A DNA stretch of 64,000 nucleotides from Telopea speciosissima. Lineage: Eukaryota > Streptophyta > Magnoliopsida > Proteales > Proteaceae. This document shows, one piece after another, positions 3,453-56,842 of the stretch (the first letter of the stretch is position 1; the number at the start of each line of letters is the position of its first letter). The stretch lies in contig NC_057918.1 of NCBI RefSeq assembly GCF_018873765.1, positions 66,692,871-66,756,870 on the forward strand, read 5' to 3'. The translations under genes were made by a program, and so were the position numbers. The notes under the pieces were generated by a model. The model was not told the origin of the DNA. It did no database searches and worked only from the letters and a program-made list of their open reading frames with translations.

Positions 3453-4488
3453 GTAGAGGATCCAAATTCGAAAACATTGGGACAAGCTCCCATGTACGCA
3501 AAAATAGGGGTGAGTACACTCCGTTGATCAAATGGCATCAATCCATCAGCCACATCACACTAGTTGACATGTAGCTCCCTAGGCGGCGGTCTAAATCACA
3601 TCCCGGTTACTCACACAGGGCATCCAGATGGCTAGGCCAAACATCTCACGGCTAAGAGAGGAACATATAACAGTCATGGTGTGCCTCATCCAACAACGAA
3701 CCCCCTACGGGAAAGGGTTGTAGACATGTCCAAAACATAAAACCATAAAATCTTTTGTCCTTTCATTCCTTTCATCCATTTTCACATAACACATGAGCAG
3801 TCATAAACATTCAAAGGAAAATCAACATTTAGTCTAAAAACATCATCAGTTAAACATGTGCATGTGCTTTCAAAATCATCAAAACAGTACACAGAAAAAC
3901 ATATACATAGGTGGTTAATGCCAAGTCCCACAAACCTCGATATTGTTCTAAATAGTGATTCATTTACCACCCAAGGTGCTACAACCTCAGATATCTATGT
4001 ACATATACATGTATCCACTATTATTACATTAACTAATAGATTCATATATAATCAAATACACTTCACCCCTCTAGAAGTCCTTTTATATTCTTCCGGCAAA
4101 ATTTTGTCAAAATCTGCGCGGCAAATGGAATTAATATAGAAGTATCTCTTTCGGCATTAGAAAGGTTTCTAATTTTTTTATAATATCATTAGACCTATAT
4201 GTGAACAATACCTAAAAATTTTAGCTTCAAATTTTAAGTTATTGTTATCGAAATATAGCCCAAAAGTTTAAAACAAAGATTCTGCCAAAATCTGCGCACT
4301 AAAACCATTAAATATAAAACAAATAGTTCTCAAATTCAAAATAACTCAAATATTATTATAATGAAACTAGTCACATAAAACTAATATCCCTAAAATATTG
4401 AGACTCAAAATCAACTTCTAGGTTGGGTATCCAATCCCTTAAAGTACAATGTCCAGTCACTCTATTTTTATACACAATGGTAAGATGA
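3453..4488. other. Non-coding stretch, unit 1
   Basis: No gene is recognised. Around 3540-3615 unit 1 keeps about 75 bp missing from unit 2 (near 33527). The missing piece lies between two ggcatc motifs, as expected for a microhomology deletion in unit 2. Confidence 0.45.
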
Positions 4489-4930
4489 TATTAGAATGGG
4501 TTTTTTACAATTACCACCCCCAAAATCTTTTATATTTACTAGTACCCCTTCAAAAATTTTGAAACAACTGTTACCCTCTCCTGTTGAATACTAATAATTA
4601 ACTGGCCCCCATCGTTATAGACCCATAACGGAGGGGGTTAGTCGTGAAAATGTACCGTCGTCACGGATTTTTTAAGACCAAAATGCCCTTTTGGAGTGGT
4701 AATTGTAAAAAACTCCCATCCCATCACCTTCGCTTCTCCTCCTCCTCCTCCTTCTTCTTCTTCATCCTCAGCAACCCCAACCATCTGATTCCAGAGATAG
4801 AATTTAGAATTGCCGATTGCCAAAATGATCAAAGATGACGAAAGTAGATTTAAAAAAAAAAAAAAAAATCTTTCTTCTATTTAAATTTCAAGGAACAAAG
4901 AGACAAAAATATTCGGTTTGTTGGATAGTC

Positions 4931-4938
4931 TATATAAA
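4931..4938 (+). promoter_or_regulatory. TATA box of the captured OVATE gene
   Basis: The sequence tatataaa lies 54 bp upstream of the first ATG of the OVATE reading frame (4992), a normal spacing for a plant core promoter with a short leader. It lies inside the Mutator-like element but inward of its TIR, so the element seems to have captured promoter as well as coding sequence. Confidence 0.5.
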
Positions 4939-4991
4939 CAAAGCGCGCAATCTCCGTTCAAAGCTGTGTGTGTCTCTCTGCAATCACTCTA

Positions 4992-5744
4992 ATGATGGGT
5001 GGATTCAAACTACGACTCTCTCGCATGTTCCGTGCTTCATTTGGGTCGTGTCGATCACGCAGCGTAGCCATTTTCATCTCTCAAATCCGCCATGAATCAT
5101 CTGCAGAGGATGGTTTCGCAACAATGGAGAAGTTACAGAGTCCAGAATTGATGGAACAAAGCCCATGCTTCGGCTTTTATGATGCTAAAGGAAGAACTTG
5201 TCCCCTTGCATCACCCATTTCGCCATTAAATTCATATTACAAGCTTGAGGAATTTGAATAAAAAATGGGAAAAATTAAGTCAAAGGAAACGAAGCAGAAG
5301 AATAATCAGAGATCTATGAACAACAAATCAAGATTTCATTTTGATTCTTCATCAGGAGAAAATGATAGTGGGTGGTTCAGTACTGAACAATCTGGAGACG
5401 AGACAGAAAAGATTTTATCTTCAAAGAGTTTATCTTCTGATTCTTCTGAGATTTACCGCCGGAAAGCAGCTGAAGTTCGCCGGAGAAGGAATTCTGAAAT
5501 GAGTCATGGCCCGTTTGATTCAGGGGGCAAATTACAAGAAAGGATCGCTGTGGTGAAGCGGCCTAGTGATCCGTATAATGATTTCAGGACATCAATGGTG
5601 GAAATGATTGTAGAGAAGGAGTTATTTGCAGAAGAGGATCTGGAGAAGCTTTTACAGTGTTTTCTGTGTTTGAATTCCTCTCATTATCATAAAGTTATTA
5701 TTGAGGTATTTAAGGAAGTATGGGATACTCTGTTCTCTAATTGA
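4992..5744 (+). pseudogene. OVATE family protein gene, intronless, with one in-frame stop
   Basis: OVATE family proteins are plant nuclear transcriptional repressors that act with homeodomain partners in organ shape and secondary growth. This frame would encode about 250 residues, a usual length for the family. The N-terminus has the conserved KLRLSRMFRASFGSCRSR motif. The C-terminus (95-157 of the 3' half, at 5547-5735) has the OVATE domain, with VVKRPSDPYNDFRTSM, EMIVEKELF, LEKLLQCFLCLNS and EVFKEVWDTLF. A single TAA at 5259-5261 (codon 90) divides the frame. The next ATG, 5265, opens an intact 159-residue frame holding the whole OVATE domain. No other lesion is visible, so the stop is recent, polymorphic or an error. 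The gene sits wholly inside the Mutator-like element. A truncated OVATE-domain protein could be made by reinitiation, but this is inference. Confidence 0.82.
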
Positions 5745-6210
5745 TCTTGAAGAATCTGACAGTGTCGATCTGCTTGATCTTTAGAAACTAGAAAAGTTGT
5801 AATTTGCTTCTATTGGTGCTCACTCTGCAATTCTGTCTAATTGGGTTCTCTTTTTCTTTTTCTTTTTTTCCTATTTTTTGCTTTTTTGAATCTAAGATCA
5901 AAGATGAATTGCAGATGATGAAGAAGAAGAACAAGGAGAAGAAGAAGGAGAAGGAGGAGGAGGAGGAGAAGGGACGGTGATGGGGTGGGGGTTTTTTACA
6001 ATTATCACCCCAAAAGGGCATTTTGGTCCTAAAAAATTCGTGACAACACATTTTCACGACTAACCCCCTCCATTACTGGTCTATAACGGTGGGGCCAGTT
6101 AATTATTAGTATGCAACAGGGGAGGGTAACAATTGTTTCAAAGTTTTGAGGGGGATAATAATAAATATGAAAGATTTTGGGGTGGTAATTGTAAAAAACC
6201 CTATTAGAAT

Positions 6211-8108
6211 CTATACTTTCCAATTTAAATATATACAGAATTTTTTTATGACATAATATAAATTAAAAAATGATCATACAATCTAAAAATAACATTAAAA
6301 TTCTTTGTGTAAGTTCAATTATAATTTTCCCAAAAGTGGATTCTAGTCTGTGATCCCAATACACTAGTCGGAGTTCCAATATTTTTCTACCCTATCAATC
6401 AAAGGATTTTTTAGCCAAACTTTTACAGAGACATTACTCGATATGTTAAACACGATATGTAAAAATTTCACATCTAAATTCAAAGTATACATGGAGGTAC
6501 AATCAATATCCCATGATCGGGACAGAATCTGTCCACAAGACAAAAAAACCAAACCCTAACTTCTCTCCCTTGTACGATCAATCTTATTTAACAACATATC
6601 TACTGTAATATAATCTTAGACTTAGGATGGAAGTTCTAACCTGAGGTATGCTCGATAATCCTCATATCCAACATGGCCAATATCAAAAGACCAATACCTG
6701 GTTGGTTCAAGCCTAACCATTCCCATTTAAATCCTTCAACCTGAACCAATCACATTGAAACCAAAATCCAATTGAAACTTGGTTGGACACTCTTGTATGT
6801 ACCATACATACACCAACTGGCAGGCATCAAGTTCCCCACACACATGCACCTCAAGTTATAATTTAATCATCTCTACCTTAGTGTGTACCACTATCAGGCT
6901 TTCTATAAAATTTGGGGTATTATATATAAGACCAAATCCTGAAAACAGGATCCAGTGGACTGGATGTTACAGACAGAACTCACAGAGAGTAACCGGATGC
7001 GACCAGATCTAACAACCGGACTAACTTGAAGAAGAAGAAGAAGAAGAGAGATTTGCTAGTAAAGAAGGCTTGGGATTTGGTCATTTGGGTTCACAATGAA
7101 TGGAATACAGAGTTTGGATCGAAAGCAAGCCTAAGGGGAAAGATTTGGGGTCACCCAAGAGGTAGGACTCAATCCACCTCAAGATTCTTTTAGTTTTAAT
7201 ATGGTTTTGATGTTCATGAGAAGTACTATAAATGTATAATGATAGCTTAGTGTAGTTTTGGGTGAAAGCAGTGGAACCGGTCGATCGATTGCTCTCAGAT
7301 GAATAGGGGTCGACCCATACTTCGTCCAGTTGACCAAAAAGGGAGATTTTTTTGTATTAATGAGTGAACATTGTGGGGATATTGCCTACTAAGCTAGGGC
7401 CTTTAATGAAAGGGTCTAATGTATTCAAATCTTTGTGTAGGGATTTATTTGATCGTGTGACTTTGGAGGCTTGGAAACTATGATTGTCAAGAACAGTAGA
7501 GACACATTGTGAGTGGAATTTTATCATATTTCCATTTCTTTCACAGTACTTCATGTTTTAGTATGTTATGCATGTCTTGAGATTGAAATCATCGCCTTGA
7601 TTAAGGGTTGTGAATTTACATTCTTACCCTCTAAATAACTGACACTTTGTACTTGAGTGACAAGAAAAATATAGTTTCAAATTTTAGTTGTAACCTTCTT
7701 GGTTACAAACAGACAAACCCTTTATTTAATTATAATTGCATCAAATATTCTTTAGAGAACACAATGATATACCACTATCCAATTAAATATCTGAATAAAC
7801 GAATACAGAGTGGATCAAATCCAATTTTAAAATATCAATTTACATAACTATGATATAGAATATAGACATAGTGGCTTATTAGGTTAGGATGGATTGGAGA
7901 AAACTTTATTTCCCTTTATGACATTGCTATGTTAATGGTTTCTATTTTCTACAAATGGGCTTTAAATCTGAGGCTAGAGAGGATCTCAGACTGACTTTAG
8001 GAAGGATGATGTTTTAAACTTTTTTTTTTTTTAATTAACTTAATTTTGATTCGCATAAACAAAGTATAGCCAAATTATACTTTAAAAAGCCTAAGTGGGT
8101 TGGCCTTC
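6211..8108. other. Non-coding stretch between the Mutator-like element and the NLR 3' flank
   Basis: No gene is recognised. Around 7020-7040 a (gaa)n tract stands where unit 2 has a longer segment with a (ga)n run (35170-35370). At about 7875 lies the unoccupied site of the truncated LINE found in unit 2. The sequence acaaagtatagcc at 8058 is the unoccupied site of the unit 2 solo LTR. Confidence 0.5.
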
Positions 8109-8906: not shown

Positions 8907-11900
8907 TCAACTTATCATCCTCACATATATTAAATTGGTGAGGTGCTTAAGTTGATCTCGGAGATTCTTGTGGTGAGGCCATCCGTAAAGAAATAGTTTT
9001 CGAAGGGAGACAAGGCGTTGGAGATCCTCTTCTCCTTTTATGTAATCCAGCTGCTGCAGCCCCTCCTCCTCCTTCTCTGAAAAATCACCAATTTCTAAAA
9101 TCTCAAGCATGGTGAGCCGGTGCAACCCCTCTGGTACTGACTTCAATTCCTTAAAGCCAGTCAAATGCAACTGTCGAAGAGAAGTCATTCCCCTTAAGTC
9201 TGGCAAAGACTTTAATAGTGGACAACTAACTATTACCAATCTTTTAAGAGAGGGAAAATCTAGGGGTGTGGGCAGGGGAGATGATCCCTCCAGCTCTTCT
9301 TGTCCTCCTTGACTACTTGGAAAAATTGTTTCAAGCTTGTAGCATGCACAGAACTCCATGTTCTCAAGAACATGTGCATTGTTTTGTAGCAACCTCTCTG
9401 GAACCGACTTCAGTTCTCTACAGGATTTAATTTCAAGATCCTTGACAGAAGAGATAAGGTTGCTTGACAATGACCTTATAAGTGCCATTTCATTTGTATC
9501 CAAAAACCGCAAGGTTTTGAGGGAAGGGAATCGACTTGGCATGATTTTCAGCTCAGGGCATGAGTAGAGCCACAATTTCTCAAGAGATGGAAATGAAGGC
9601 AACACTTCCAACCACTCAACCAAATTTAACATTTCAGATAGCTTTAGCTCCTTAAGCGATGGAAATGCAACCGTCCCTGAAGAAGAAGAAGATGATGCTC
9701 CAGCACTACTACTACTACTACAACTGTTGTTGTTGTTGTTGTTGCTGCCATAATAGAATTCTCGACCAATACATTTCACCTTTTCCATTCCCTCTAATAC
9801 AAGATCCCTAAGAAAGGGTAGCTCCCCAAGCATGGGTGGGATATGTTCCAATCCATGGCAATTTTCTAGTTTGAGCTCAATCAAATTTTTGTATGCTGTC
9901 AAACCAGTAGTACTTGCAGCTGCTGCCATCCATGTAGGGTATTTTGTACCGCCAAAGTTTTGGATCCAAAAACTTTTCAAGTTTGGATGAGGTTTTAGGC
10001 CTTCTAACACATCATCATCCATTTTGTTGCCATTGTCACGTCTACTTTCAGTACCCCACCATAATCGTAGAGAACGAATACCATGCTTCCCACACAAATC
10101 TGCCTCCCTGGCTTCCTCTATGATTACAATATCCTCCAGACCACTTATGGTTAGTTCTCCTCTGAGATTATTCAAGCACTTGAGCTGTTTAAGACTGCGT
10201 CCTCCATCTTTGCCTACAATAAATCTTGTTATTGTTTGAAGATTAGTCAATCTCCCCATCTCAACTGGCATCTCAAACCATCTGCCCTCAAATTCCAAAT
10301 GTCTCAGGCTAACCATCTTTCTCATTTCCTTGGGAAGCTCTCGGAGTATATAGCAACTGTTGAGTTTTAACGTCTGTAAATTGTAGAGGCTAGTGATAGA
10401 CTCCGGCAACACTTCAATCAGATTATCTGAGAGGTCAAGGTACCTTAAATGTTTCAATTTTCTTATTGAAGGTGGCACCTCCTTCACCCAACAACTTGAT
10501 ACATCCAACACACGCAAGCTCTGGAAGTTCATCAAAATATCAATATTTGAGACAGAGTATTTACTTTTCCATCCCAAAGACTTCTTTTGGAGAAATATTA
10601 ATGTTGTCCGCAATTTCTTTGCCTTTTCCAAGTCTTTTGGAATTTCAATTAATGTGTCCTCATGATCTGAAAAAAGTGACAAACCACGAACTTCATCAGA
10701 AATATTTTCCACATTATTGGGCTTCATGGTGGAATATTCAAGCTTTCCGACAACTTGTGCAAGATCATGTATAAGATCATGCATCTTGCATCTCTTTATA
10801 TCTCCGTATTTGTCCTTCTCCACATCTTGAAAGAAAGAATTCAATAATAAGCTATTGAAATATTCATTGCCGACATCCTCCATTTGTTTGCTTCCAAGGA
10901 ATCCCTCAGCCATCCATAATTGTGTCAACATTTTTATATCAAATTCATAATCCTTGGGGAATACTGAACAATACGCAAAACAACATTTCAAATATGACGG
11001 CAGATGATCGTAACTCAACTTTATAATCCCCATCATTCTTCTACTATTATCTTCTGGTAAATTCCAAAATTCACCTTGTTCCACAGACAACCATTCACCT
11101 TCTTCCATTTTGTAGTGCATTAAGCTTCCTACGACCTTCACTGCTAAAGGCACTCCTCCACACTTTTTTACAATTCTCCCTCCAATTTCCACCAGGTTTG
11201 GGGTTTCTTGTGGCCCTCCATTTCTAAATGCTCTTTGATGAAACAAAGACCAACATTCTTTTTCTGATAATATTCCCAAATAATGAGTGTGATTTGGAGT
11301 CATCATCCTTGCAACATTATTGCTACGTGTAGTCACAATAATCTTGCTACCTGCACTGCCAGATTTTAAGTGCTTTATCAAGTTATCCCATTTTTCACCA
11401 TCGTCGCTCCAAACATCATCTAGTACTAGTAAAAACCGTTTACCCACCAACTTCTCTTGGAGCTTACGTGCTGTGAGATCTAAGTTTGATACATCAAATT
11501 TAGTTCCATCAGCAACAGCTGATTCTGTGATTTCTTTTAAAAGTCTGGGGACTTCAAATGGTTCAGAAACACATACCCACATTCTTAAATCAAAATGGTC
11601 CTTCGTCAATGGATCATTGAAGACCAATTGAGCGAGAGTGGTCTTCCCAAGTCCCCCCATTCCTGCAATGGGGAAGACCGAAATGATTTGATCAGTGCAA
11701 GTTTTAACCAGCATATCCACTAATACTGATTTGTCATCTGCCCTTCCAACCACTTCCGAATCATCTATAACAGAGGTGGTTTGCCTGTCCTCTGTTTTGT
11801 TCTTCATCATGGATGATGTGGAATGAGCTGATGATGAGTCCTCCGGTCGTACTCTAAGGTTGAAGTCATTTGCATCCTTTCTGATTCCATCTAACACTTC

Positions 11901-12284
11901 ATTGATGTCCTTAAGCTTATGGGCCATTTTAAGACGAAACGCAAAGGGATTGGAGCGTGAGAAGAAGTTGCGTACCTTTCCCATCTTTCCTCGGTTTTGG
12001 ATCTCCATTTTACGTCTTAAAGCTTCATAGTTGAACTCATCAAGCACATCATCTGCATCATAAGCAACACTTTTGAGCCTCCTCAACCAGTTTTTCACAG
12101 CCTCCTTCTCTACTTGCTGGTTCTCGGCATCCTTGAGTACATCTCGAATGGTGGTCAAGGTAGTCTCCAGCTTTTTCAACTCTGCCTTCACACCCCATGC
12201 TTGACCGATTTCATGGGTAACAACAGGGATCAAACTCGTCAAGACTTGTTGTGCTCCGGAGACAAGAATCGATTCAGCAGCCAT
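8907..12284 (-). CDS. CC-NBS-LRR (CNL) disease-resistance protein, RGA-like, copy 1
   Basis: This is an intracellular immune receptor of 1125 residues in one uninterrupted exon. The N-terminal Rx-type coiled coil spans about 1-150, with [10 protein letters not shown] at 75-84 as its EDVID-like motif. The NB-ARC domain has the P-loop GMGGLGKTT (208-216), the RNBS-A segment [10 protein letters not shown] (231-240), kinase-2 LLVLDDVW (285-292; the final W marks the non-TIR class), [14 protein letters not shown] (312-320), GGVPLAV (376-382), [14 protein letters not shown] (435-448) and MHD at 501-503. LRRs fill about 550-1125, with the repeated LRxLxL pattern. Asn and Ser runs coded by simple repeats (9670-9750) interrupt the LRR region near residue 850. 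All ATP-binding motifs are present, so it looks functional. It is chosen from the ATG at 12284, which matches the CNL N-terminus. The RGA-like label rests on motif style, not a search. Confidence 0.97.
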
Positions 12285-22173: not shown

Positions 22174-24603
22174 TTAGGAGGACTCCACTACAGACAGAAA
22201 GCTGGGTTGGTCCAGCCAAAACCGTTGAACAAGGAAGGGAGCATTTGTCGGTCTCTTAATGGCTTCAACCACCACTAGCAAAGGAGCATGGTCAGACACG
22301 GTGCTAGTAAGCACACTCTGCGAACTATCCCCAAAAGCCGAAAGCCAGACTTCATTACAGAAACTTCTATCCAACACAGCCGGCACATGCCCAACCCTTC
22401 TGTTATTAGTCCAAGTGAACTCACGTCCCTGAGAAGGAATCGCCATCAACGAGCAAGCATCCACCATCGCCCCAAACTCCGCAGCCGATCCCTGATTGAA
22501 GGATCTTGGGCCTTTCTTCTCAGACGAGGCCAAGGTAGCGTTAAAGTCGCCTACAACCAGCCAAGGAGTGGAATCCAGCAGAGCCACATTCCCAAGCTCG
22601 GTCCACAGATCTCTACGAAGCGCCCTCAGGCACTTTGCATGAACAAAAGTCAAGAGGGGATTGCTCTGACCCCAATCCACCTTGATCGTAATCTGTTGCT
22701 CAAATTCCAACACAAGAGCCGGCTTCGATAAACGCCGTTTCCAAATCACCCAAAGGTTTGGAGCCCTATCTCTTCTATTGTTGTGAATGAAGTCACAATC
22801 ATATCCCAACTTGTTAAAAAACAAAGTAGGAAATTTATTAATCTCCACCATCGGTTCCGCAATGCAAACCACCTCCGGATACTTTTCTTTAATAAACATT
22901 CTCAAGGTCGACTTAGCAGCAGCCTTCCTAACCCCTCTAATATTCCAAAAGAGAGCCCCCATTAAAAACGTTTTTTTTTTCACCACGCGACTTGATTTCC
23001 TCGTCATATACTCCCCAACCTGTTTCCCCTTAGTCATTTGCTGGTTCGCGGCCTCACCAGCCTCTAAGGCCCTAATAGCAACATTAGCCTTTTCTACCCC
23101 AGGGTGGTGTACCTCAGCCAGTCCTACATCCACCTGTAATGGGCTCAATGAATTAGCTTCATTTCCCAAGGAATCTGACACAAGAACATCACCATCCACT
23201 ATCGGCTCCCTAGCTACAATGCCATAAGCTGCAGCAGAGTCATGAGAGAATTCTGCTTCAGATACATGTTTAGATCCATGATTAGAACCCGATCCATCAG
23301 CTCCCAAAAACCCGGCCTGCGTGCCAAAAATAACTGGCAAAACCACCTCCAATGTACCACCCTCTCTTAGGATCTCAACGCTTCCAGCATTCTCGCAGAT
23401 CCCACCCTCTCTATTGTTGTCCTCCATGTCATGCAGTCTGCCCAAACTAGAAACCGAATCACGTTTCCTGCTAATATCCTCCACTAGCCTAGTAGATCTT
23501 TCCAAGAAAGGAGAGATTTTATTAGAATTCCCCCCTTGGATCGGATTTCCTAAATCCACACGGATCTCAAGATTCACTGGAGGCAAGTCCCCCTGACCAC
23601 GTCTCTTCCTGCTTCGCTGGCGCCGCCTCCGGCCATCTTCCCACTCCGAATCTGCGTTTGCATTCTGATCACCTTCCTTACCAACATCAGCAGCCTCAGG
23701 CCACACCTTCGATCTACATTTCTCTGAAGAGTGACCCAGCTTTTTACAGAACTTGCACCACTCAAGCTTGTCTTCATATACTATATTCTGGTGAAACCAG
23801 AAAGGATCACTCGAGGACGGATGCATATGTTCAACCTGAATTTCACAAGTCCTTTCACCCTCAATATCGATCTCCACCAGAACTCTAGCGAAATTCCCAA
23901 ACATCACGCGTTTGGTACGACGATCAATAGCCACCGGCCTCCCAGCCGCCTTTGCCATAGATAACAAAATTTTCTCATTCCAATATTCTAGAGGGAGGTT
24001 TGGGAATCTAATCCAGACCAGTTTGGTCGACGTCGATCTATCGTTTAGATTAAACCGTGGCCTCCAACGTTGGAAAGTTATCGATTGAGATCCCACCCTC
24101 ATCGACCCTCTTTTCCAGACAGCAACCATATCTCCCTCCTTCTCAAACCGGGCAAGAAAGAAACCCGTACCCAGCGGCGATAGAACCACCCCCGCCTCTA
24201 ATCTCCATGCAGCTCTAAAAGCAACCCTTATCTCGTCCAAGGTAATGAACCGGAAGTTTGTTCTTCCTATCAAAGCATTCTTGAGGCCGAGCAACTCTTT
24301 CTCATACGCCTCCTGAGGAATGACCACCTTTGTAGAGTTCTCGGCTTTTATCAGATCTGACAAGTCATCAATAACAGGCAGTGACGCTCCCACCGCCCTT
24401 GCAAAAGACTTTGTCAAGGGTGGTCTGGTGTTACCAACATCTGCCGAAGCCTTTACCCCAGCCTGCTCCCCTCCTTCCACAGAACTTGCTATCGGCTTAA
24501 AGAAATCCACAATACGAAGCTGCCTCCCACTCGCCGGCAGCCTACTCCCACCTGGGTCGTCCGGCACACCCTCCCCCAAGTCAGACTCATTCATGGTTCC
24601 CAA
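22174..24603 (-). CDS. LINE ORF: gag-like/zinc-knuckle domain joined to AP endonuclease, unit 1
   Basis: An open frame of 809 residues. Residues about 100-245 resemble the DUF4283 domain of plant LINE ORF1. A CCHC zinc knuckle (CKFCKKLGHSSEKC) is at 283-296, followed by a basic stretch. From about 570 comes the apurinic endonuclease domain that nicks target DNA, with WNIRG, AEPM, VVGDFNA and SDHAPL all visible. In intact plant L1 elements the endonuclease is continuous with the reverse transcriptase in ORF2. Here ORF1 and endonuclease share one frame, which ends at a stop just after the endonuclease, so the frame arrangement is probably degenerate. The same stop exists in unit 2. The length is well preserved for a dead element. 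Confidence 0.85.
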   Translation of the reverse strand: MGTMNESDLGEGVPDDPGGSRLPASGRQLRIVDFFKPIASSVEGGEQAGVKASADVGNTRPPLTKSFARAVGASLPVIDDLSDLIKAENSTKVVIPQEAYEKELLGLKNALIGRTNFRFITLDEIRVAFRAAWRLEAGVVLSPLGTGFFLARFEKEGDMVAVWKRGSMRVGSQSITFQRWRPRFNLNDRSTSTKLVWIRFPNLPLEYWNEKILLSMAKAAGRPVAIDRRTKRVMFGNFARVLVEIDIEGERTCEIQVEHMHPSSSDPFWFHQNIVYEDKLEWCKFCKKLGHSSEKCRSKVWPEAADVGKEGDQNANADSEWEDGRRRRQRSRKRRGQGDLPPVNLEIRVDLGNPIQGGNSNKISPFLERSTRLVEDISRKRDSVSSLGRLHDMEDNNREGGICENAGSVEILREGGTLEVVLPVIFGTQAGFLGADGSGSNHGSKHVSEAEFSHDSAAAYGIVAREPIVDGDVLVSDSLGNEANSLSPLQVDVGLAEVHHPGVEKANVAIRALEAGEAANQQMTKGKQVGEYMTRKSSRVVKKKTFLMGALFWNIRGVRKAAAKSTLRMFIKEKYPEVVCIAEPMVEINKFPTLFFNKLGYDCDFIHNNRRDRAPNLWVIWKRRLSKPALVLEFEQQITIKVDWGQSNPLLTFVHAKCLRALRRDLWTELGNVALLDSTPWLVVGDFNATLASSEKKGPRSFNQGSAAEFGAMVDACSLMAIPSQGREFTWTNNRRVGHVPAVLDRSFCNEVWLSAFGDSSQSVLTSTVSDHAPLLVVVEAIKRPTNAPFLVQRFWLDQPSFLSVVESS

Positions 24604-31970: not shown

Positions 31971-34900
31971 GAACATCTTAAACCGTCAAAGCAACGTTAT
32001 TCAGTTTTCTCCAACTCTTGGAGCTTTGATACACCTATGGGACCTACACGGATCAGACCATGATGTTGTTGAGAAGCATGCATGAAGATAAGATTCACAA
32101 AGAAACTTACAAATCCAACATCATGCCGAATCCATCGAAAATAAAAAGGTTCCAATCCCAATTCCCGACCCAGGAAGTGGAAGCGCAATTTTTTTACCCT
32201 ACTATATCCTTTCCTTTTAGAACCATTGAAGGTATCGGAACCCCATCTTCCCACCTCCTTGGTTGTGATGGAGTTGATTGGTAGCACCGTTGTTGAGCTT
32301 TGAGTGGACTCAAAACAGTAGTTCAATGTAATCTATATGTTATACTTCGTACCTAGAAAATGATTAATTTAAGGTTGTTTATCGTCTATAGGTACTATAA
32401 AAGAAACCCGGCTTATACTGGTCCAATTGAGGGGTATTATTGACACACCTTCAGATGAGAGTGGACCGTGATGTTTTTTTTTGGGAGGGTGAATGAAGGA
32501 CGTTGATGTTATTATGTTGTAAAATGTGAATTAATAAGATTATTTTAATGATAAATGGCTTAGTGGACCTAACGTGAATTCTAAGATCTGGTAATGAGTT
32601 GGTTTGACCCTTAGACTAGTTTGGACCCTATTGATGGTCCACGACAGAGTGTTGGATCTGATAGATAGGCAGTTTAGGTGAAACAGCAACTTCACCTACA
32701 TGATTTTTAGGATATCTTCTAGTTAGAATTTGAGGACACCCAAAACATGAGAGATGAAGGTAATTGAATTACCTTTCTAACAAATAAAAAAAGAATCGGG
32801 ACAATCAGAGTTCGTACGAGAGAGATATGCGAATTGAGTAGGCAAGGGTCCGTAGAACTATCACAACCCAAATCCAGAAGGGTCTAAGATCCGTGATTCC
32901 TAGAAACAATATCTCATAGATTTCATAAAATCAAAAAATATAAACCTTCCATGAATAAATCCTCATAATCAAAATTCTATATTCCATTGTCCAGTGGAAA
33001 CCTTAAATAATAAATTAAAACACATCATACTTTAACATCTGTCTAGTGGCTACTGAAAAACCTTAAAATCAAATCAAGTCAATTAAACAATTTGAAACCA
33101 AATTAATTATAAAGTCTCTTATTAATGTCCAACAATAATATAAGAACTTCCATGCATGAAAGCCACCACCAGTCGATTAGCTGTGTCCTCCGATCCACCA
33201 GTCTTTCTAAGAATGCAATGCCGATTAATCACTTGTACTGATCTGAAAGAGTAGAGGGGTGAGCTATACAGTCTGGCAGGTAGGAATCAAGAACAACCAC
33301 AAATACTTAGGCATGCATAAAAAAAAATCCATCCATATGCGAAAACATTCACAATTAAAAGATTGGATAAACTTACATAAATCAAGACATCAGGAAACAT
33401 GTATACTTTCCATGAAAACATAAAAACATTTTTCCATTATAAACCATCAACTCCTCATTGAAAATATTGGGACAAGCTGCCATATATGCAAAAATAGGGG
33501 TGAGTGCACTCCGTTGATCGATGGTATCCGGATGGCTACGCCAAACATCTCACGGCTAAGAGAGGAACATATAATAGTCATGGTGTGTCTCATCCAACAC
33601 CTAACCCCCTACAGGAAAGGGTTGTAGACATGTCCAAAACATAAAACCATAAAATCTTTTATCGTTTCATTCGTTTCATCCATTTTCACATAACACATGA
33701 GCAGTCATAAAGATTCAAAGGAAAATCAACATTTAGCCTAAAAACATCATCATTTAAACATGTGCATGTGCATTCAAAGCCATCAAAATAGTAAAGAGAA
33801 AAACATATACGTAGATGGTTAATGCCAAGTCCCACAAACCTCGATATTTTTCAAAATAGTGATTCATTTACCACCCAAGGTACCACAACCTCAGATACCT
33901 ATGTACATATACATGTATCCACTGTTATTACATTAACTAATATATTCCTATATAATCAAATATGCTTCACCCTTCTAAAAATCCTTTTATATTTTTCTGA
34001 CAAAATTCTTTCAGAATCTGCGCGGCAAATGGAATTAGTATAGACCCCAAATAGAATTATCTCTTTCGGCATTATAAAGGTTTCCAATTTTTTTATAATA
34101 TCATTAGACCTATGTATGAACAATAGCTAAAAAAATTCAGTTTCAAATTTTAAGTTATTGTTATCGAAATATAGCCCACAAGTTTAGTACACAGATTCTG
34201 CCAGAATTTGCGCACTAAAACCGTTAAATATAAAACAAATAGTTCTCAAATTCAAAATAACTCAAATATTATTATAATGAAACTAGACACATAAAATTAA
34301 TATCCCTAAAATATTGAGACTCAAAATAAACTTCTAGGCTGGGTATCCAATCCCCTAAAGTACAGTGTCCAGAATCAGTCTATTTTTGTACACAATGGTA
34401 AGATGATATTAGAAATATCCAGAAATTTTTTTATGACATAATATAGATTAAAAAATGATCATACAATCCAAAAATAACATTAAAATTCTTTGTATAAGTT
34501 GAATTATTATTTTCCCAAAATCGGATTTTAGTTTGTGATCCCAATACACCAGTCGGAGTTCCAGTATTTTTCTACCCTATCAAACAGAGGATTTTTTAGC
34601 CAGACTTTTATAGAGACATTACTATACATGTTAACCACGGTATGTAAAAATTTCACATCTAAATTCAAAGTATACATGGAGGTACAATCAATATCCCATG
34701 ATCGGACAGAATTTGTCCACACGGCAAAAAATTCAACCCCTAACTTCGACCCCCTTGTACGATCAATTTTATTTAACAACATATCTACTATAATATAATC
34801 TTAGATTTAGGATGAAAGTTCTAACCTCAGGTATGCTCGATAATCCTCATATCCAACATGGCCTATATCATAGACCAATACTTGGTTGGTTCAAGCCTAA

Positions 34901-35296
34901 CCATTCCCATTTAAACCCTTCAACCTGAACCAATCACATTGAAACCAAAATCCAATTGAAACTTGGTTGGACACTCTTGTACGTATCATACTTGCACCAA
35001 CTGACATGCATCAAGTTCCCCACACACATGCACCTCAAGTTATAATTTAATCATCTTTACCTTAGTGTGCACCACTATTAGGGTTTCTATTAAATTTGGG
35101 GTCTTACAAGACCAAATCCTGTAAACAAGATCCAGAGGACTGGATGTTACAGACAGAACTCACAGAGAGTAACCGGATGCGATCGGATCTGACCACCAGA
35201 CGAACTTGAGTCGCCCAGTATGCATCCGGATGACCCAGCTTGAGGTCAGTTTAGCAACTGGTCCACCGGATGAGTTCAAGTTAGACATTTTAAGTG

Positions 35297-36279: not shown

Positions 36280-38797
36280 GCTAATGGTCAGCAATTTGTA
36301 TTAATATGAAACAAAAATAGTATAGCTAATATCCTTTAACCAGCCAAAGGGGAGAAAACCAGCGATTCAAAAGATCCTGGCATACTAATGACTCAACACA
36401 TTACTGAAATCTATAGTTATGTTGCCCAAGAGCATCCCTGCCAACAGTGTTAGCAATGAAGCTTGGAGTAGAGTTCCAATAGCATGTTGTTTTCCTCTTG
36501 GCTGCCAAGTTGGCGAGGGCGTCCGCTGCTGAGTTTGCCTCCCTGTAGCAGTGTGTGACCCGCCATTGAATAGAGTCTAGGAAAGACTTTGCTGTCCACC
36601 ATTCTTGCAAAAGATTCCATGGTAAATTCTCTGAAAGTATTGCCGCCACTACAGCTTGAGAGTCGCTTTCAATCCACAGTTTTTCTGGTTTCAAAGTGCT
36701 AGCTATCTTGATGCCAGTGAGGAAAGCGCCCATCTCAGCTCTGAAATTTGTGCCTGTCCCGAGGTAAACCGCAAAGCATTTCTTGACTATTCCAAGGTGG
36801 TCTCTAAAAATGCCTCCTGCCCCAATTGATCCCGGATTGCCTAAAGAGGACCCATCAATATTCAGTTTCCACCAGTTTAAGAGGGGGTGTTTCCATTTTA
36901 CTTCCCTAATGATCTTGGGAGGGGCTGTTGCTGTCGCAACCTTGAGAGTTCGTGCCAATATGAGCTCTTGGACTGAGTGAATTACCGCTCCTTTGGCCCT
37001 TGTGCATTCCACCATTTCAACCAGACATAATTTGACCACTTGAGATGGTGTTCTTTGTTGGTTTTCACATCGTCTTCTGTTTCGTTCCCACCATAAATAC
37101 TTGCAGCCAACAACAAGAAGAACTCGCCATGCTCGAGGTAGAGGAACCACCTTGATCTTCTTGCGCCACCATGAGAAAAGTCTTTCAATTGTAGGGAATC
37201 CTCTCCATGCTTGGTTGAAACCATACACAATCTCCCTCCAAACATGGATAGAAAAAGAGCACTCCAAGAAGAGATGCTAGCTGGAATCACAAGCTGCAAA
37301 ACAGAGGTAAAATCGAGAAACTACAGGAACAGTTTTACGCCTCACATTGTGATCAGTTGGGAGAGCATCATGCACTAATCGCCAGCCAAAAATGGATGTT
37401 CTAGGGAGGAGATCTCGATCCCAAACCTCCAAGACCCAGCTCGGTTTTGCTGCCTTTACTCTAGTGGCTTCCCAGGCAGATTTTACCGAGAAAAACCCAG
37501 TACTTGTGTGAGCCCAGAACCACTTATCATCTCTGTTGGTACAAGAGATGACACTCTCCACAATTTTATCAAAAATCTGCTGTAATTGGGGGTTTTGGAC
37601 CGTTGGAAGTGACCAATCTCCATCTTCTCTAAAGTCTGCCACTGTTGCCAATAGATTGTTTGGAATGCGATAAGGAAGTAGGAGATTTTCAACACTATCA
37701 CTTCCAATCCATTTATCATACCAGAATTTGGCAGTGTTGCCATTCCCAATCACCCATCTCTCTGCATTTTACACAAAATGCCACACTTTTCTAAGTCCAG
37801 GGAGAATAGAGGAGGATCCAACAGATTTTTTCAACCCTCCATCTTTTCTCATAAATCTGCATGTTAAGAAATCAGCGAAAGGGGTGTTATCCACCTTGAT
37901 TGTCCAAGCTAGCTTTGAAATTAAAGCTAAATTTAGGTCGCGAAGGCGTCGAATGCCTATACCTCCCTCAGCTTTGGGCTTGCACATGCGATCCCATTTA
38001 ACAGTGATAGCTTTCTGTGTTTCCGCCTCCCCAGTTCAAATAAAATTGCGGGTCCACCTTTCCATGATTCCAATAGCACGAACCGGCCAAAGATAGATTG
38101 AAAAGTTGTGAACAGGAATGCTGCTCAACACGGACCGAACCAATTCAATGCGACCAGCCAAAGAAAGCATATGCCCCTTCCAAGAATTCAGTTTTTGCTT
38201 GAACTTGTCAATGAGTGGCTGAATTATGTCGTTCTTAACTCTGCCTTTCACCAACTTGACACCCAGATACCTTGTGGGGAAGCTGCTAACTGAGATTTGA
38301 AGAGTCGAGGCAATTCTTAGTCGAGGCAATTCTTTGTCTTCTGGAAGAAGTTACATGACCCAGGAAGATCTTGCTCTTTGTGTAATTTATTACTTGGCCT
38401 GAAGCAGCTCCATAGATCTGTAGGAACCTCTTAACTTTCCTGAGGTCACGGATTTCTGCTTTCATAAAGATAAATAGGTCATCAACATATAAAAGGTGGG
38501 AGGGAGTGTTTACCAGCCGAGCTCCACTGAGCGGTTTGATCCATCCCTTGTTGCGCATCTCCGTAAGACCCCTGCAAAGTACCTCTTCAGAGAGAATAAA
38601 GAGCAACGGGGACAGGGGGTCCCCTTGACGTAGACCCCTTTCCATCTCAAAGAATCCCACTGATCCACCATTGATCATAATAGATATCCGTGTCGAAACA
38701 AGAATCTGATGCACCCAATGAACCCATGTCTGAGAGAACCCAAATGCAAACAGGACATCAAACAAAAATTCCCATTCAAGAGTATCGAAGGCTTTAG
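36280..38797 (-). mobile_element. 5'-truncated L1-type LINE private to unit 2
   Basis: A 2.5-kb element on the minus strand. Its poly(A) tail is the T run at 36268-36279. Its 5' end breaks off inside reverse transcriptase motif A (LKAFDTLEWEF at about 38770-38797). Unit 1 has no element at the matching site near 7875, where gacatagtggcttattaggt runs straight on. No clean target-site duplication could be resolved, perhaps because the flank mutated. Its sequence is distinct from the large LINE. Confidence 0.9.
36401..38765 (-). pseudogene. Reverse transcriptase, zf-RVT and RNase H of the truncated LINE
   Basis: Reverse transcriptase parts: ISIMINGGSVGFFEMERGLR followed directly by QGDPLSPLLFILSEEVL, and LLYVDDLFIF (YVDD catalytic motif). 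These are followed by FPTRYLGVKLVKGRV, a zf-RVT portion, and an intact 288-codon frame (36401-37267) with RNase H residues (LNIDGSSLGNPG, FRAEMGAF, WIESDSQAVV, CYREANSAADALANLA). Frame changes near 38310, 38000-38036, 37760 and 37270 disable it. The catalytic residues themselves are kept, so it looks younger than the shared LINE. Confidence 0.9.
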
Positions 38798-41000: not shown

Positions 41001-44000
41001 TCATCTACGTGTCGTCCTCACATCTATTAAATTGGTGAGGTGCTTAAGTCGATCTCGGAGATTCTTGTAGTAAGGCCACCCGTAAAGTCTTAGTTCTCGA
41101 AGGGAGACAAGGTGTTGGAGATCCTCTTCTCCTTTTATGTAATGCAGCTGCAGCCCCTCCTCCTCCTCCTCTGAAAACTCACCAATGTATAAAAACTCAA
41201 GCATGGAGAGCCGGTGCAATCCCTCTGGTAGTGACTTCAATTCCTTAAAGTCAGTCAAACACAACTTTCGAAGAAAAGTCATTCCCCTTAAGTCTGGCAA
41301 AGACTTTAAAAGAGGACAGTTATATATTTCCAATGATTTAAGAGACGGAAAGACTAGGGGTGTGGGCAAGGGAGTTGATCCCTCTTGTCGTCCTCCTTGA
41401 CTACTTGGAAAAATTGTTTCAAGCTTGTCGCAGTTATAGAACTCCATGCTCTCAAGAACATGTGCACTGTTTTGTAGCAACCTCTCCGGCACCGACTTGA
41501 GTTCTTCACAAAATCTAATTTCAAGATCCTTGACAGAAGAGATAAGTTTACTTGAAAATGACCTTATAAGTGCCATCTTATTTGTATTCCAAAACATCAA
41601 GCATTTGAGGGAAGGGAATTGACTTGGCATGATTTTCAACTTAGGGCATGAGTTGAGCCACAATTTCTCAAGAGATGGAAATGAAGGCAACACTTCCAAC
41701 CATTCAACCAAATTTAACATTCCAAATAGCTTTAGCTCCTTAAGCGATGGAAATGCAACCGTCCCTGATGAAGAAGAAGATGCTCCAGCAGTACTACTAC
41801 TACTACAACTGTTGTTGTTGGTGTTGCTATAATAGAACTCCCGATCAATACATTTGACCTTTTCCATTCTATTTAACCAAAGAACCCTAAGAAAGGGTAG
41901 CTCCCCAAGCATGGGTGGGACATATTCCAATCCATTGCACTTTTCTAGTTGGAGCTCAATCAAATTTTTGTATGCTGACAAACCAGTAGTACTTGCTGCC
42001 ATCATCCATGTAGGGTATTTTGCACCGCCAAAGTTTTGGATCCAAAAACTTTTCAAGTTTGGATGAGGTTCTAGGCCTTCTAACACATCATCATCATCAT
42101 CATCATCCATTTTGTTGCCATTGTCACTTCTACTTTCAGTACCCCACCATAATCGTAGAGAACGAATACCATGCTTCCCTCGCAAATCTGCCTCCCTGGC
42201 TTCTTCTATTGTTACAATATCCTCCAAACCACTTATTGTCAGTTCTCCTCTAAGATTATTCAAGCACTTGAGCTGTTTAATACTGCGTCCTCCATCTTTG
42301 CCTACAATAAATCTTGTTAATGTTTGAAGATTAGTCAATCTCCCCATCTCAACTGGCATCTCAGTGCATTTGTCATAATTGCAAAGTTCAATATTTCTCA
42401 GGCTAACCATCTTTCTTATTTCCTTGGGAAGCTCTCGGAGTTTATAGCAACTGTTGAGTTTTAACGTCTGTAAATTATAGAGGCTAGTGATAGACTCCGG
42501 CAACACTTCAATCAGATTATCTGAGAGGTCAAGGTACCTTAAATGTTTCAATTTTCTTATTGAAGGTGGCACCTTCTTCACCCAACAACTTGATACATCC
42601 AACACACGCAAGCTCTGGAAGTTCATCAACATGTCAATATTTGAAGCAAAGTAATTACTTTTCCATCTCAAAGACTCCTTCTGGAGAAATATTAATGATG
42701 TCCGCAATTTCTTTGCCTTTTCCCAAGCTTTTGGAATTTCAATTGATCTTTTCTCACGATCACAAAAAAGTAACAAACCACGAACTTCATCAGAAATATC
42801 TTCCACATTATTGAGCTTCGTGGTGGAATATTCAAGCTTTCCAATAACTTGTGCAAGATCGTGTACAAGATCATGCATCTTGCATTTCTCTATATCTCCA
42901 TATTCGTCCTTCTCCACATCTTGAAAGAAATAATTCAATAATAAGCTATTGAAATATTCATTGCCGACATCCTCCATTTGTTTGCTTCCAAGGAATCCCT
43001 CAGCCATCCATAATTGTATCAACATTTTTATATCAAATTCATAATTCTTGGGGAATACTGAGCAATACACAAAACAACGTTTCAAATTTGATGGCAGACG
43101 ATCGTAACTCAACTTTAATATCCCCATCATTCTTCTACTACTATCTTCTGGTAAGTTCCAAAATTCACCTTGTTCCACAGACAACCATTCACCTTCTTCC
43201 ATTTTGTAGTGCATTAAGCTTCCTACGACCTTCACTGCTAAAGGCACTCCTCCACACTTTTTTACAATTCTCCCTCCAATTTCCACCAGGTTCGGGGTTT
43301 CTTGTGGCCCTCCATTTCTAAATGCTCTTTGATGAAACAAAGACCAACATTCTTTTTCTGATAATATTCCCAAATAATGAGTGTGATTTGGGATCATCAT
43401 CCTTGCAACATTATTGCTACGTGTAGTCACAATAATTTTGCTACCTGCACTCCCGGATTTTAAGTGTTTTATCAAGTTATCCCATTTTTCATGATCGTCG
43501 CTCCAAACATCATCTAGTACTAGCAAAAACCGTTTAACCATCAACATCTCCTGGAGCTTACGTGCTGTCACATCTAAGTTTGATACATCAAATTTAGTTC
43601 CATCAGCAACAGCTGATTCTGTGATTTCTTTTAAAAGTCTGGGGACTTCAAATTGTTCAGAAACACATACCCACATTCTTAAATCAAAATGATTCACAAT
43701 CAACAAATCGTTGAAGACCAATTGAGCAAGAGTGGTCTTCCCAAGTCCCCCCATTCCTACAATGGGGAAGACCGAAATGATTTGATCATTGCAAGTACTC
43801 TTGACAAGCATATTCACTAGTACTGATTTGTCATCTGCCCTTCCAACCACTTCCGAATCATCTATAACAGAGGTGGTTTGCCTGTCCTCTGTTTTGTTCT
43901 TCATCATGGATGATGATGATGAGTACTCATCCGGTAGTACTCTAAGGTTGAAGTCATTTGCATCCTTTCTGATGCCATCTAACACTTCATTGATGTCCTT

Positions 44001-44375
44001 AAGCTTATGGGCCATTTTAAGACGAAACGCAAATGGGTTGGAGCGTGAGAAGAAATTATTGCGTACCTTTCCCATCATTCCTCGGTTCTGGATCTCCATT
44101 TTACGTCTTAAAGCTTCATAGTTGAACTCATCAAGCACATCATCTGCATCAAAAGCAACACTTTTGAGCCTCCTCAACCAGTTTTTCACAGCCTCCTTCT
44201 CTACTTGCTGGTTCTCGGCATCCTTGAGTACATCTCGAATGGTGGTCAAGGTAGTCTCCAGCTTTTTCAACTCTGCCTTCACACCCCATGCTTGACCGAT
44301 TTCATGGGTAACAACAGGGATCAAACTCGCCAAGATTGGTTGTGCTCCGTAGACAAGAATCGATTCAGGAGTCAT
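41001..44375 (-). CDS. CC-NBS-LRR (CNL) disease-resistance protein, RGA-like, copy 2
   Basis: A single-exon receptor of 1124 residues, closely similar to copy 1 over the coiled coil and NB-ARC. All nucleotide-binding motifs are intact: [34 protein letters not shown] and [10 protein letters not shown]. Differences include the N-terminus ([10 protein letters not shown] versus [10 protein letters not shown]), a shorter Ser-rich linker before the NB-ARC, VMVKRF-like changes beside kinase-2, and several LRR replacements, such as [11 protein letters not shown] where copy 1 has [13 protein letters not shown] repeat encodes seven Asp instead of three (42087-42113). The Asn/Ser tract near 41780-41830 is shorter. 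No lesion is seen, so it is probably functional. Divergence in LRR surface positions hints at different recognition, which is inference. Confidence 0.97.
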
Positions 44376-54412: not shown

Positions 54413-56842
54413 CTAGGAGGACTCCACTATAGACAGAAAGCTGGGGTGGTCCAGCCAAAACCGTTGAACAAGGAAGGGAGTATTTGTCGGTCTCTTAATG
54501 GCTTCAACCACCACTAGCAAAGGAGCATGGTCAGACACGGTGCTAGTAAGCATACTCTGCGAACTATCCCCACAAGCCGAAAGCCAGACTTCATTACAGA
54601 AACTTCTATCCAACACAGCCGGCACATGCCCTACCCTTCTGTTATTAGTCCAAGTGAACTCACGTCCCTGAGAAGGAATCGCCATCAATGAGCAAGCATC
54701 CACCATCGCCCCAAACTCCGCAGCCGATCCCTGATTGAAGGATCCTGGGCCTTTCTTCTCAGACGAGGCCAAGGTAGCGTTAAAGTCGCCTACAACCAGC
54801 CAAGGAGTGGAATCCAGCAGAGCCACATTCCCAAGCTCGGTCCACAGATCTCTACGAAGCGCCCTCAGGCACTTTGCATGAACAAAAGTCAAGAGGGGAT
54901 TGCTCTGACCCCAATCCACCTTGATCATAATCTGTTGCTCAAATTCCAACACAAGAGCCGGCTTCGATAAACGCCGTTTCCAAATCACCCAAAGGTTTGG
55001 AGCCCTATCTCTTCGATTATTGTGAATGAAGTCACAATCATATCCCAACCTGTTAAAAAACAAAGCAGGAAATTTATTAATCTCCACCATCGGTTCCGCA
55101 ATGCAAACCACCTCCGGATACTTTTCTTTAATAAACATTCTCAAGGCCGACTTAGCAGCAGCCTTCCTAACCCCTCTAATATTCCAAATGAGAGCCCTCA
55201 TTAAAAACGTTTTTTTTTTCACCACGCGACTTGATTTCCTCGTCGCATACTCCCCAACCTGTTTCCCCTTAGTCATTTGCTGGTTCGCGGCCTCACCAGC
55301 CTCTAAGGCCCTAATAGCAACATCAGCCTTTTCCACCCCAGCGTGGTGTACCTCAGCCAGTCCTACATCCACCTGTAATGGGCTCAACGAATTAGCTTCA
55401 TTTCCCAAGGAATCCGGCACAAGAACATCACCATCCACTATCGTCTCCCTAGCTACAATGCCATAAGCTGCAGCAGAGTCATGAGAGAATTCTGCTTCAA
55501 ATCCATGTTCAGATCCATGATTAGAACCCGATCCATCAGCTCCCAAAAACCCGGCCTGCGTGCTAAAAATAACGGGCAAAACCACCTCCAATGTACCACC
55601 CTCTCTTAGGATCTCAACGCTTCCAGCATTCTCGTAGATCCCACCCTCCCTATTGCTGTCCTCCATGTCATGCAGTCTGCCCAAACTGGAAACCGAATCA
55701 CGTTTCCTGCTAATATCCTCCACTAGCCTAGTAGATCTTTCCAAGAAAGGAGAGATTTGATTAGAATTCCCCCCTTGGATCGGATTTCCTAAATCCATAT
55801 GGATCTCAGGATTCACTGGAGGCAAGTCCGCCTGACCATGTCTCTTCCTGCTTCGCTGGCGCCGCCACCGGCCATCTTCCCACTCCAAATCTGCGTTTGC
55901 ATTCTGATCACCTTCCTTACCAACATCAGCAGCCTCAGGCCACACCTTCGATCTGCACTTCTCTGAAGAGTGACCCAGCTTTTTACAAAACTTGCACCAC
56001 TCAAGCTCGTCTTCATATACTATATTCTGGTGAAACCAGAAAGGATCACTCGAGGACGGATGCATATGGTCAACCTGAATTTCACAAGTCCTTTCACCCT
56101 CAATATCGATCTCCACCAGAACTCTAGCAAAATTCCCAAACATCACGCGTTTGGTACGACGATCAATAGCCACCGGCCTCCCAGCCGCCTTTGCCATAGA
56201 TAACAAAATTTTCTCATTCCAATATTCCAGAGGGAGGTTTGGGAATCTAATCCAAACCAGTTTGGTCGACGTCGATCTATCGTTTAGATTAAACCGTGGC
56301 TTCCAACGTTGGAAAGTTATCGATTGAGATCCCTCCCTCATCGACCCTCTTTTCCAGACAACAGCCATATCTCCCTCGTTCTCAAATCGGGCAAGAAAGA
56401 AACCCCTGCCCAACGGCGATAGAACCACCCCTGCCCCTAATCTCCATGCAGTTCTAAAAGCAGCCCTTATCTCGTCCAAGGTAATGAACCGGAAGTTTGT
56501 TCTTCCTATCAAAGCATTCTTGAGGCCGAGCAACTCTTTCTCATACGCCTCCTGAGGAATGACCACCTTTGTAGAGTTCCCGACTTTTATCGGATCCGAC
56601 AAGTCATCAATAACAGGCAGTGACGCTCCCACCGCCCTTGCATAAGACTTTGTCAAGGGTGGTCTGGTGTTACCAACATCTGCCGAAGCCTTTACCCCAG
56701 CCTGCTCCCCTCCTTCCACAGAACTTGCTATCGGCTTAAAGAAATCCACAATACGAAGCTGCCTCCCACTCGCCGGCAGCCTACCCCCACCTGGGTCGTC
56801 CGACACACCCTCCCCCAAGTCAGACTCATTCATAGTTCCCAA
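54413..56842 (-). CDS. LINE ORF: gag-like/zinc-knuckle domain joined to AP endonuclease, unit 2
   Basis: 809 residues, the same length and same terminal stop as the unit 1 copy, with scattered substitutions. The zinc knuckle CKFCKKLGHSSEKC and the endonuclease motifs WNIRG, VVGDFNA and SDHAPL are kept. The frame has stayed open in both copies although the downstream reverse transcriptase has decayed. This may be chance given the short time since duplication. Confidence 0.85.
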   Translation of the reverse strand: MGTMNESDLGEGVSDDPGGGRLPASGRQLRIVDFFKPIASSVEGGEQAGVKASADVGNTRPPLTKSYARAVGASLPVIDDLSDPIKVGNSTKVVIPQEAYEKELLGLKNALIGRTNFRFITLDEIRAAFRTAWRLGAGVVLSPLGRGFFLARFENEGDMAVVWKRGSMREGSQSITFQRWKPRFNLNDRSTSTKLVWIRFPNLPLEYWNEKILLSMAKAAGRPVAIDRRTKRVMFGNFARVLVEIDIEGERTCEIQVDHMHPSSSDPFWFHQNIVYEDELEWCKFCKKLGHSSEKCRSKVWPEAADVGKEGDQNANADLEWEDGRWRRQRSRKRHGQADLPPVNPEIHMDLGNPIQGGNSNQISPFLERSTRLVEDISRKRDSVSSLGRLHDMEDSNREGGIYENAGSVEILREGGTLEVVLPVIFSTQAGFLGADGSGSNHGSEHGFEAEFSHDSAAAYGIVARETIVDGDVLVPDSLGNEANSLSPLQVDVGLAEVHHAGVEKADVAIRALEAGEAANQQMTKGKQVGEYATRKSSRVVKKKTFLMRALIWNIRGVRKAAAKSALRMFIKEKYPEVVCIAEPMVEINKFPALFFNRLGYDCDFIHNNRRDRAPNLWVIWKRRLSKPALVLEFEQQIMIKVDWGQSNPLLTFVHAKCLRALRRDLWTELGNVALLDSTPWLVVGDFNATLASSEKKGPGSFNQGSAAEFGAMVDACSLMAIPSQGREFTWTNNRRVGHVPAVLDRSFCNEVWLSACGDSSQSMLTSTVSDHAPLLVVVEAIKRPTNTPFLVQRFWLDHPSFLSIVESS

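Follow-up and report, generated by a model that had tools for sequence, protein, structure and literature searches.

The stretch of DNA from the waratah Telopea speciosissima analysed here (64,000 nucleotides, hereafter the window) contains, at positions 4498–6201 and between two copies of a target-site duplication (TSD), a Mutator-like element (MULE) of 1704 bp that houses an OVATE cargo. Its features are collected in Table 1. A first-pass annotation had described a perfect 9-bp duplication, terminal inverted repeats (TIRs) of about 270 bp and, between them, an OVATE gene carried by a Pack-MULE beside an NLR gene, and in these respects it is borne out. The two TSD copies are identical, a match with a chance of about 6e-6 at the base composition of the window, and the TIR identity that the annotation wished to see calculated is as given in Table 1. 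The neighbouring NLR gene is a minus-strand frame at 8907–12284 (NB-ARC, E 9e-52), whose near edge, the 3' end, lies 2.7 kb from the element. It is one of two open frames of Rx_N-NB-ARC-LRR type in tandem units of the window, at 8907–12284 (1125 codons) and 41001–44375 (1124 codons). Three further frames are presumably LINE-like: that at 22174–24603 has endonuclease/exonuclease and DUF4283 domains, that at 54413–56842 is by eye near-identical to it, and that at 36401–37267 has an RNase H domain.

Table 1. Coordinates of the element, its cargo and its empty counterpart in the window
Feature	Position	Strand	Remarks
Left target-site duplication	4489-4497	.	TATTAGAAT
Upstream TIR	4498-4766	+	88.9% identity to reversed 5938-6201, 270 columns
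Inverted copy of terminal motif within upstream TIR	4689-4713	-	
Stretch separating upstream TIR from captured gene	4767-4831	.	
Captured stretch: promoter, coding sequence and 3' flank	4832-5910	+	93.5% identity to C8 locus (L012)
TATA-like motif of captured promoter	4931-4938	+	TATATAAA; in four element copies and the C8 gene
5' part of OFP frame	4992-5261	+	closed by in-frame TAA 5259-5261, codon 90 from 4992
3' part of OFP frame, same frame	5265-5744	+	OVATE domain at about 5565-5735
Downstream TIR	5938-6201	-	pairs with 4498-4766, 270 columns, 88.9% identity
Inverted copy of terminal motif within downstream TIR	5989-6015	+	
Right target-site duplication	6202-6210	.	TATTAGAAT; 9/9 match with left copy
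Unoccupied target in paralogous unit	34407-34414	.	TATTAGAA; 21 bp missing immediately to the right

The OVATE domain in the 3' part of the frame is recognised by Pfam PF04844 (E 8e-25), and this part is 91% identical to Telopea protein P0001. The 1704-bp element has no frame of transposase size, the longest (159 aa) being that of the OVATE cargo. Pack-MULEs, as characterised in the available part of PMC3310237, are non-autonomous MULEs with a TSD of 9–11 bp and TIRs typically of 100–500 bp that carry genes or gene fragments; one third are multicopy with distinct TSDs, and the parent is not linked with MULEs, according to the part of PMC8277862 to hand. The element in the window shows a 9-bp TSD, TIRs within the 100–500 bp range and membership of a dispersed family sharing its ends; it is non-autonomous, without transposase, and its PF04844 cargo comes from a host gene, present in several mobile copies, with a parent elsewhere that lacks these TIRs. 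It is a Pack-MULE with OVATE cargo, as had been proposed.

Copies of the element and the likely parent of its cargo

The first-pass annotation had suggested a search for other copies with the same TIRs and for the parental OVATE gene, and both were recovered. Among the 40 of 859 first-look candidates scored in the 822.9-Mb assembly (1287 contigs) there are at least four end-to-end copies: the one in the window, on C3, and those on C10 (94%), C11 (92%) and C2 (90%, at 39.27 Mb). Their TSDs are TATTAGAAT for C3 (9/9), CTTATAAAA for C11 (9/9), an 8/9 match for C2 and, for C10, an A-rich 11-bp repeat offset by one base, an extra base being needed at the left end. No long similarity among the flanks of the four copies was found in the approximately 3 kb outside the element on each side, and these separate TSDs and unrelated flanks argue for transposition rather than segmental duplication. 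The four copies form a single clade (support 100/99), which points to one capture event. The 23-base end motif of the TIRs, with up to two mismatches, occurs at 405 + 418 (823) genome sites, as against none for a reversed-pattern control; since the motif has a second, inner copy in every arm, this figure counts sites and not elements. A 9-bp TSD could be discerned by eye in seven of eight other TIR pairs (L043 having none) and in both longer pairs examined, or nine of ten in total, two of them needing a left-end shift of 1–2 bases and several lying in A/T-only sequence. The interiors of the eight pairs gave no match to the OVATE cargo; L037 and L042 have a common interior, as do L043 and L044.

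The fifth match of the element search, C8:23114027–23115129, corresponds to window 4832–5910 (about 1.1 kb) and has no TIR, no TIR match of at least 60 bases being present in 9 kb around it. Homology to the C8 locus stops sharply at both borders, which are identical in the other three copies. Window 4771–4840 matches those three copies at 94–97%, and matches the 9-kb C8 locus over 12 bases only. The C8 frame is open and uninterrupted, and its ATG precedes the aligned start by one codon. A 14-row protein tree places the C8 protein with Macadamia P0060 (100/100) and the canonical Telopea OFP8 with Macadamia P0059 (99/97); the C8 gene is thus an old paralogue within the Proteaceae, and the likely parent. 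It resembles canonical OFP8 at 73%, a similarity that reaches some 130 bp ahead of the start codon, and an N-terminal shortening is common to the mobile copies and the C8 gene and is not found in Macadamia P0060. The stretch shared by element and C8 locus starts 160 bp ahead of the frame and runs on for 166 bp after it, so that promoter, whole coding sequence and 3' flank were taken up in a single capture. To judge from these comparisons, the parent is likely to be the OFP8-type gene located at C8:23.11 Mb, or else a close relative of that gene since lost.

The 12 bases GATCAAAGATGA stand at both capture borders (4827–4838 and 5896–5907), at the 5' border partly in filler and at the 3' border within the parent sequence; they may be a microhomology used in capture, or may have arisen by chance. 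A degraded match to canonical OFP8 at C10:6353011–6353394 (residues 92–217, 80%, two stops) does not figure in the match list of the element search.

Two further loci, C2:59.04 Mb (L013) and C8:60.36 Mb (L014), contain only the equivalent of window 5072–5808. At L013:3003–4606 the partial OFP copy lies inside other inverted repeats, of about 430 bp and 82.7% identity, with ends GGGTAAAATACACTGACCCC..., and is accompanied by the 9-bp repeat AAAAATATA, given a one-base shift at the right end. The partial copies at L013 and L014 form their own clade (96/90), and at 11 sites that unite the four elements they agree with the C8 gene and not with the elements, which argues for an independent partial capture from the same gene lineage. 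Given that a second TIR family also took part of this gene, it may be a capture hotspot. The L014 locus is rearranged, and several more pieces of the L013-type repeat lie around it.

The insertion site and the timing of insertion

The element interrupts one unit of a tandem array. Its left flank (3619–4496) matches 33523–34414 at 91.0% and its right flank (6225–7029) matches 34409–35209 at 91.3%, while the second unit has no element sequence at all. The unoccupied paralogous site that had been placed at about 34405–34420 is indeed there, the flanks joining at the target in Table 1 without the element, though 21 bp have been lost. These 21 bp are kept beside a single target in outgroup copies of the surrounding repeat on C5 and C9. 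The site is empty in the outgroup repeats, base by base on C5 and C9 and by contiguous BLAST match on C11 (of four such repeats, L064 was counted by BLAST match only, and L062, interrupted to the left of the site, was excluded); ancestrally it was unoccupied. A candidate third unit of the array (L035) was rejected as an extra empty site, since its match is confined to the initial 500 bp of the left flank and does not reach the site. The sequence at 3900–4497 is itself a dispersed repeat, with 32 genome matches, including itself, on many contigs.

The tandem units adjoining the element have diverged by K2P distances of 0.080 and 0.082. Counted over noncoding and synonymous sites, 9–13 of about 475 distinguish the window copy from each of the other three, a significantly smaller share than distinguishes the unit flanks from one another (128/1669; P 6e-7 to 6e-5); against the C8 gene the count is 26/480, which is not significantly below that of the flanks (P 0.11). 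The earlier proposal that the element inserted after the tandem duplication, and so recently, is upheld in so far as the copies are closer to each other than the flanks are; the comparison with the parent is indecisive, and a 21-bp deletion abuts the site. On these divergences, insertion after the duplication is likely. The alternative that retains most weight, though it too is unlikely, is that the element predates the duplication and that unit 2 lost it, together with the 21 bp, by imprecise excision. The absence of those 21 bp from unit 2 exactly beside the target, when they are present in the C5 and C9 outgroups and when only eight other gaps occur in about 1.69 kb of flank alignment, is in keeping with such a loss, as is the indecisive comparison with the C8 gene, and the gap is possibly an excision scar. 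Against this, unit 2 retains no element sequence, and the divergence of the window copy from its sister copies is far below that of the units, an argument which would weaken if the window copy were the founder of the family.

Coding state of the cargo and decay of the terminal repeats

The cargo had earlier been taken for an entire gene with a TATA box. As to its extent this was correct, from the promoter to the 3' flank; as to its being intact it was not, for an intact OVATE frame from start to stop is absent from the window copy, which has an in-frame TAA. The window copy is a captured whole gene that is now a pseudogene. Only the C2 copy is open among the four, with a 249-aa frame identical to the annotated OFP8-like protein P0001; C3 and C11 have one in-frame stop each and C10 has three. 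The TAA common to C3 and C10 is the sole site that splits the copies 2:2, and, as the tree leaves the four copies unresolved, shared descent and recurrence of this stop are inseparable.

Codon changes were scored over codons 28–249 of the 249-codon frame, with nonsense changes counted as nonsynonymous (N). A single ambiguous site was excluded, as were the TAA site that divides the copies 2:2 and any site at which there is disagreement among the other three copies. The stem of the four-element clade has 5N/6S and the C8 branch 2N/5S, and the tips have 11N/0S (C3), 7N/2S (C2), 4N/1S (C11) and 1N/3S (C10, two of whose three stops are removed by the last exclusion), or 23N/6S in sum. The non-tip branches (7N/11S) differ from the four tips (Fisher P 0.011); the stem gives P 0.014 alone and P 0.056 against the tips. 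When canonical OFP8 is used as outgroup, two synonymous changes of the stem shift to the C8 side, leaving it with 5N/4S (P 0.10 alone, P 0.21 against the tips). These counts point clearly to purifying constraint on the host-gene side, and are suggestive of constraint during the element's own single-copy phase. The tips look neutral, and the cargo was probably inactivated while the element was multiplying.

If the C2 copy were a working, promoter-bearing and transposable repressor gene, its body spared the methylation that erodes the TIRs, then a developmental regulator would be spreading as a mobile unit; we regard this as distinctly unlikely. That the cargo has a function in the window, for example as a truncated OFP or by way of an RNA that acts on the parent gene, is judged very unlikely. 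The promoter is conserved, the 3' frame retains the OVATE domain from an ATG at 5265, and the available portion of PMC8277862 has Pack-MULEs partly transcribed and possibly encoding small RNAs; yet the frame has an in-frame stop, and the 11N/0S of the window tip gives no sign of constraint.

The arms of the element have a structure of their own. The terminal 25 bp recur in inverted orientation, starting at position 187–205 and with no more than three mismatches, in all 27 arms compared (eight belonging to the four copies, 19 from other loci), whereas the best of 540 shuffles had eight mismatches; each element consequently has four copies of the end motif. The first 216 bases of the upstream arm can fold back as single-stranded DNA (z -5.64, 0 of 200 shuffles as good), and so can 5989–6201 in the downstream arm (z -4.39, 1 of 200). 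Folding of the outer 143 bases, with the inner motif excluded, is unremarkable (z -1.18 and +0.69). The recurring motif probably represents a transposase-binding end.

Arms and cargo have aged differently. Cargo tips have lengths of 0.7–1.7%, and arm tips, in a tree that is largely unresolved, of 5–16%, except for those of C10 (0.5–0.9%). C>T and G>A account for 90 of the 136 changes in the eight arms of the four copies and for 14 of the 56 in the cargo (P 2e-7), which per C/G site amounts to 90/857 and 14/1626, respectively. Arm changes were called against the 27-arm consensus, which is deeper than that of the cargo, so that part of the difference in rate reflects depth (other changes differ 2.5-fold); the difference in spectrum does not. 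The simplest explanation of the C>T excess would be cytosine methylation confined to the TIRs. In rice genic MULEs, TIR and internal regions are methylated differently, on the available part of PMC4858842. The TIRs of the four copies are about as divergent among themselves as they are from those of the rest of the family, which would call for fast decay or for TIR exchange. Judged by its arms C10 is the youngest insertion, despite having the most broken frame, which means that broken cargo can still move.

Capture, mobilisation and comparison with known systems

That the OVATE gene is native to this site, and that two MULE-related repeats inserted on either side of it, is exceedingly improbable. 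Each arm does have its own inverted ends and can fold alone, and at 10 of 18 other TIR loci a single arm only was seen within the stretches examined. However, one 9-bp TSD encloses the whole unit, the TIR–gene–TIR arrangement recurs at three other places with different TSDs, the paralogous unit and the outgroup repeats lack the entire element, and a TIR-less relative of the gene exists elsewhere. The homology between the arms runs over 270 bp, past the inner inverted end at 216 bp, which rules them out as separate MITEs. The sole 217-bp unit examined, at C7:21950708 (L057), was likewise discarded as a MITE, since it lacks a TSD and its sequence runs on as a TIR arm would. The notion that the cargo arose by retrocopying from an OFP mRNA, as its intronless frame might suggest, hardly merits credence when the shared stretch extends beyond the frame on both sides and the C8 gene is also an uninterrupted frame.

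We propose instead that an ancestral element copied about 1.1 kb of the C8-type gene at the DNA level, the likely route being gap repair with template switching; that a MULE transposase provided in trans then mobilised the element by acting on its TIRs; and that the element inserted into one unit of the tandem array. The cargo would have been constrained while it was a host gene and have decayed neutrally once inside the element, which would make mobility independent of the cargo. We hold this account as a whole, a Pack-MULE formed by one capture from a C8-type gene, mobilised in trans and inserted into a tandem unit, to be very probable.

MULE transposase domains are plentiful in the assembly (150 scored of 828 candidates). 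None of the PF10551 hits lies within 200 kb of a TIR end, the nearest being at 203 kb, when the 103 of 150 scored hits on C1–C7 (the 47 on C8–C11 being excluded) are set against 100 listed exact TIR ends. Two longer elements were considered as autonomous partners, and no transposase was found in those of their frames that were examined. The first, L056 (C2:7775847–7782019, 6173 bp, 86% TIRs, with a TSD), has no MULE domain in the three frames scanned with Pfam, which gave respectively a GRF zinc-finger, one weak hit below the cut-off (283 aa) and no hit (79 aa). The second, of 4991 bp with the same ends and a TSD, has no transposase in frames read by eye. Among the ends listed there are three exact pairs 6164–6173 bp apart (L056, C3:17292888 and C5:62036652). 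Mobilisation by a transposase encoded elsewhere is plausible.

Pack-MULEs of rice, Arabidopsis, maize and tomato, so far as the sources to hand describe them, resemble the waratah element in TSD, TIRs, multicopy state and a parent without a MULE. Their cargo usually consists of non-functional fragments (PMC13317346, available part), and protein-coding Pack-MULEs are called rare (PMC8277862, available part). Compared with the usual Pack-MULEs of these partial accounts, the waratah element carries a complete coding sequence along with promoter and 3' flank, all from one capture, and of its four copies one is still open over 249 aa. Tomato PM-ZIBP, in the accessible part of PMC3310237, is similarly multicopy, with a piece of a host gene, a putative parent placed by phylogeny and an extra TIR inside; that extra TIR is a tandem one and the cargo a fragment, whereas in the waratah only the terminal 25 bp recur, inverted, at about 187–205. 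The KI-MULE/KIU elements are also MULEs with a protein-coding gene of host origin (PMC13317346, PMC8277862, in their available parts). As described there they are non-TIR elements with a Ulp1-like protease, in contrast to the TIR element with a transcription repressor gene described here.

In the literature available we found no paper joining Pack-MULE with ovate, ovate family protein with Mutator-like, or Telopea with MULE. RIP is a C>T process. The histone H3 gene carried by a hAT element in Pseudocercospora, in the available part of PMC6710886, is another host gene that was amplified, with copies inactivated by mutation and the original kept, most likely by purifying selection; there a hAT has hundreds of copies inactivated by RIP, as against a MULE with four copies in the waratah. 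Unlike in those RIP-inactivated H3 copies, as they are described there, the C>T excess of the waratah element is in the TIRs and not in the gene.

The family described here is a real and well-resolved Pack-MULE family whose cargo is unusually complete, and it is ordinary in kind. A single genome reveals its likely parent, the borders of capture, all four copies and the shift in constraint. The family provides a natural experiment on whether a whole gene, captured together with its promoter, remains active, and on whether host silencing stays limited to the TIRs.
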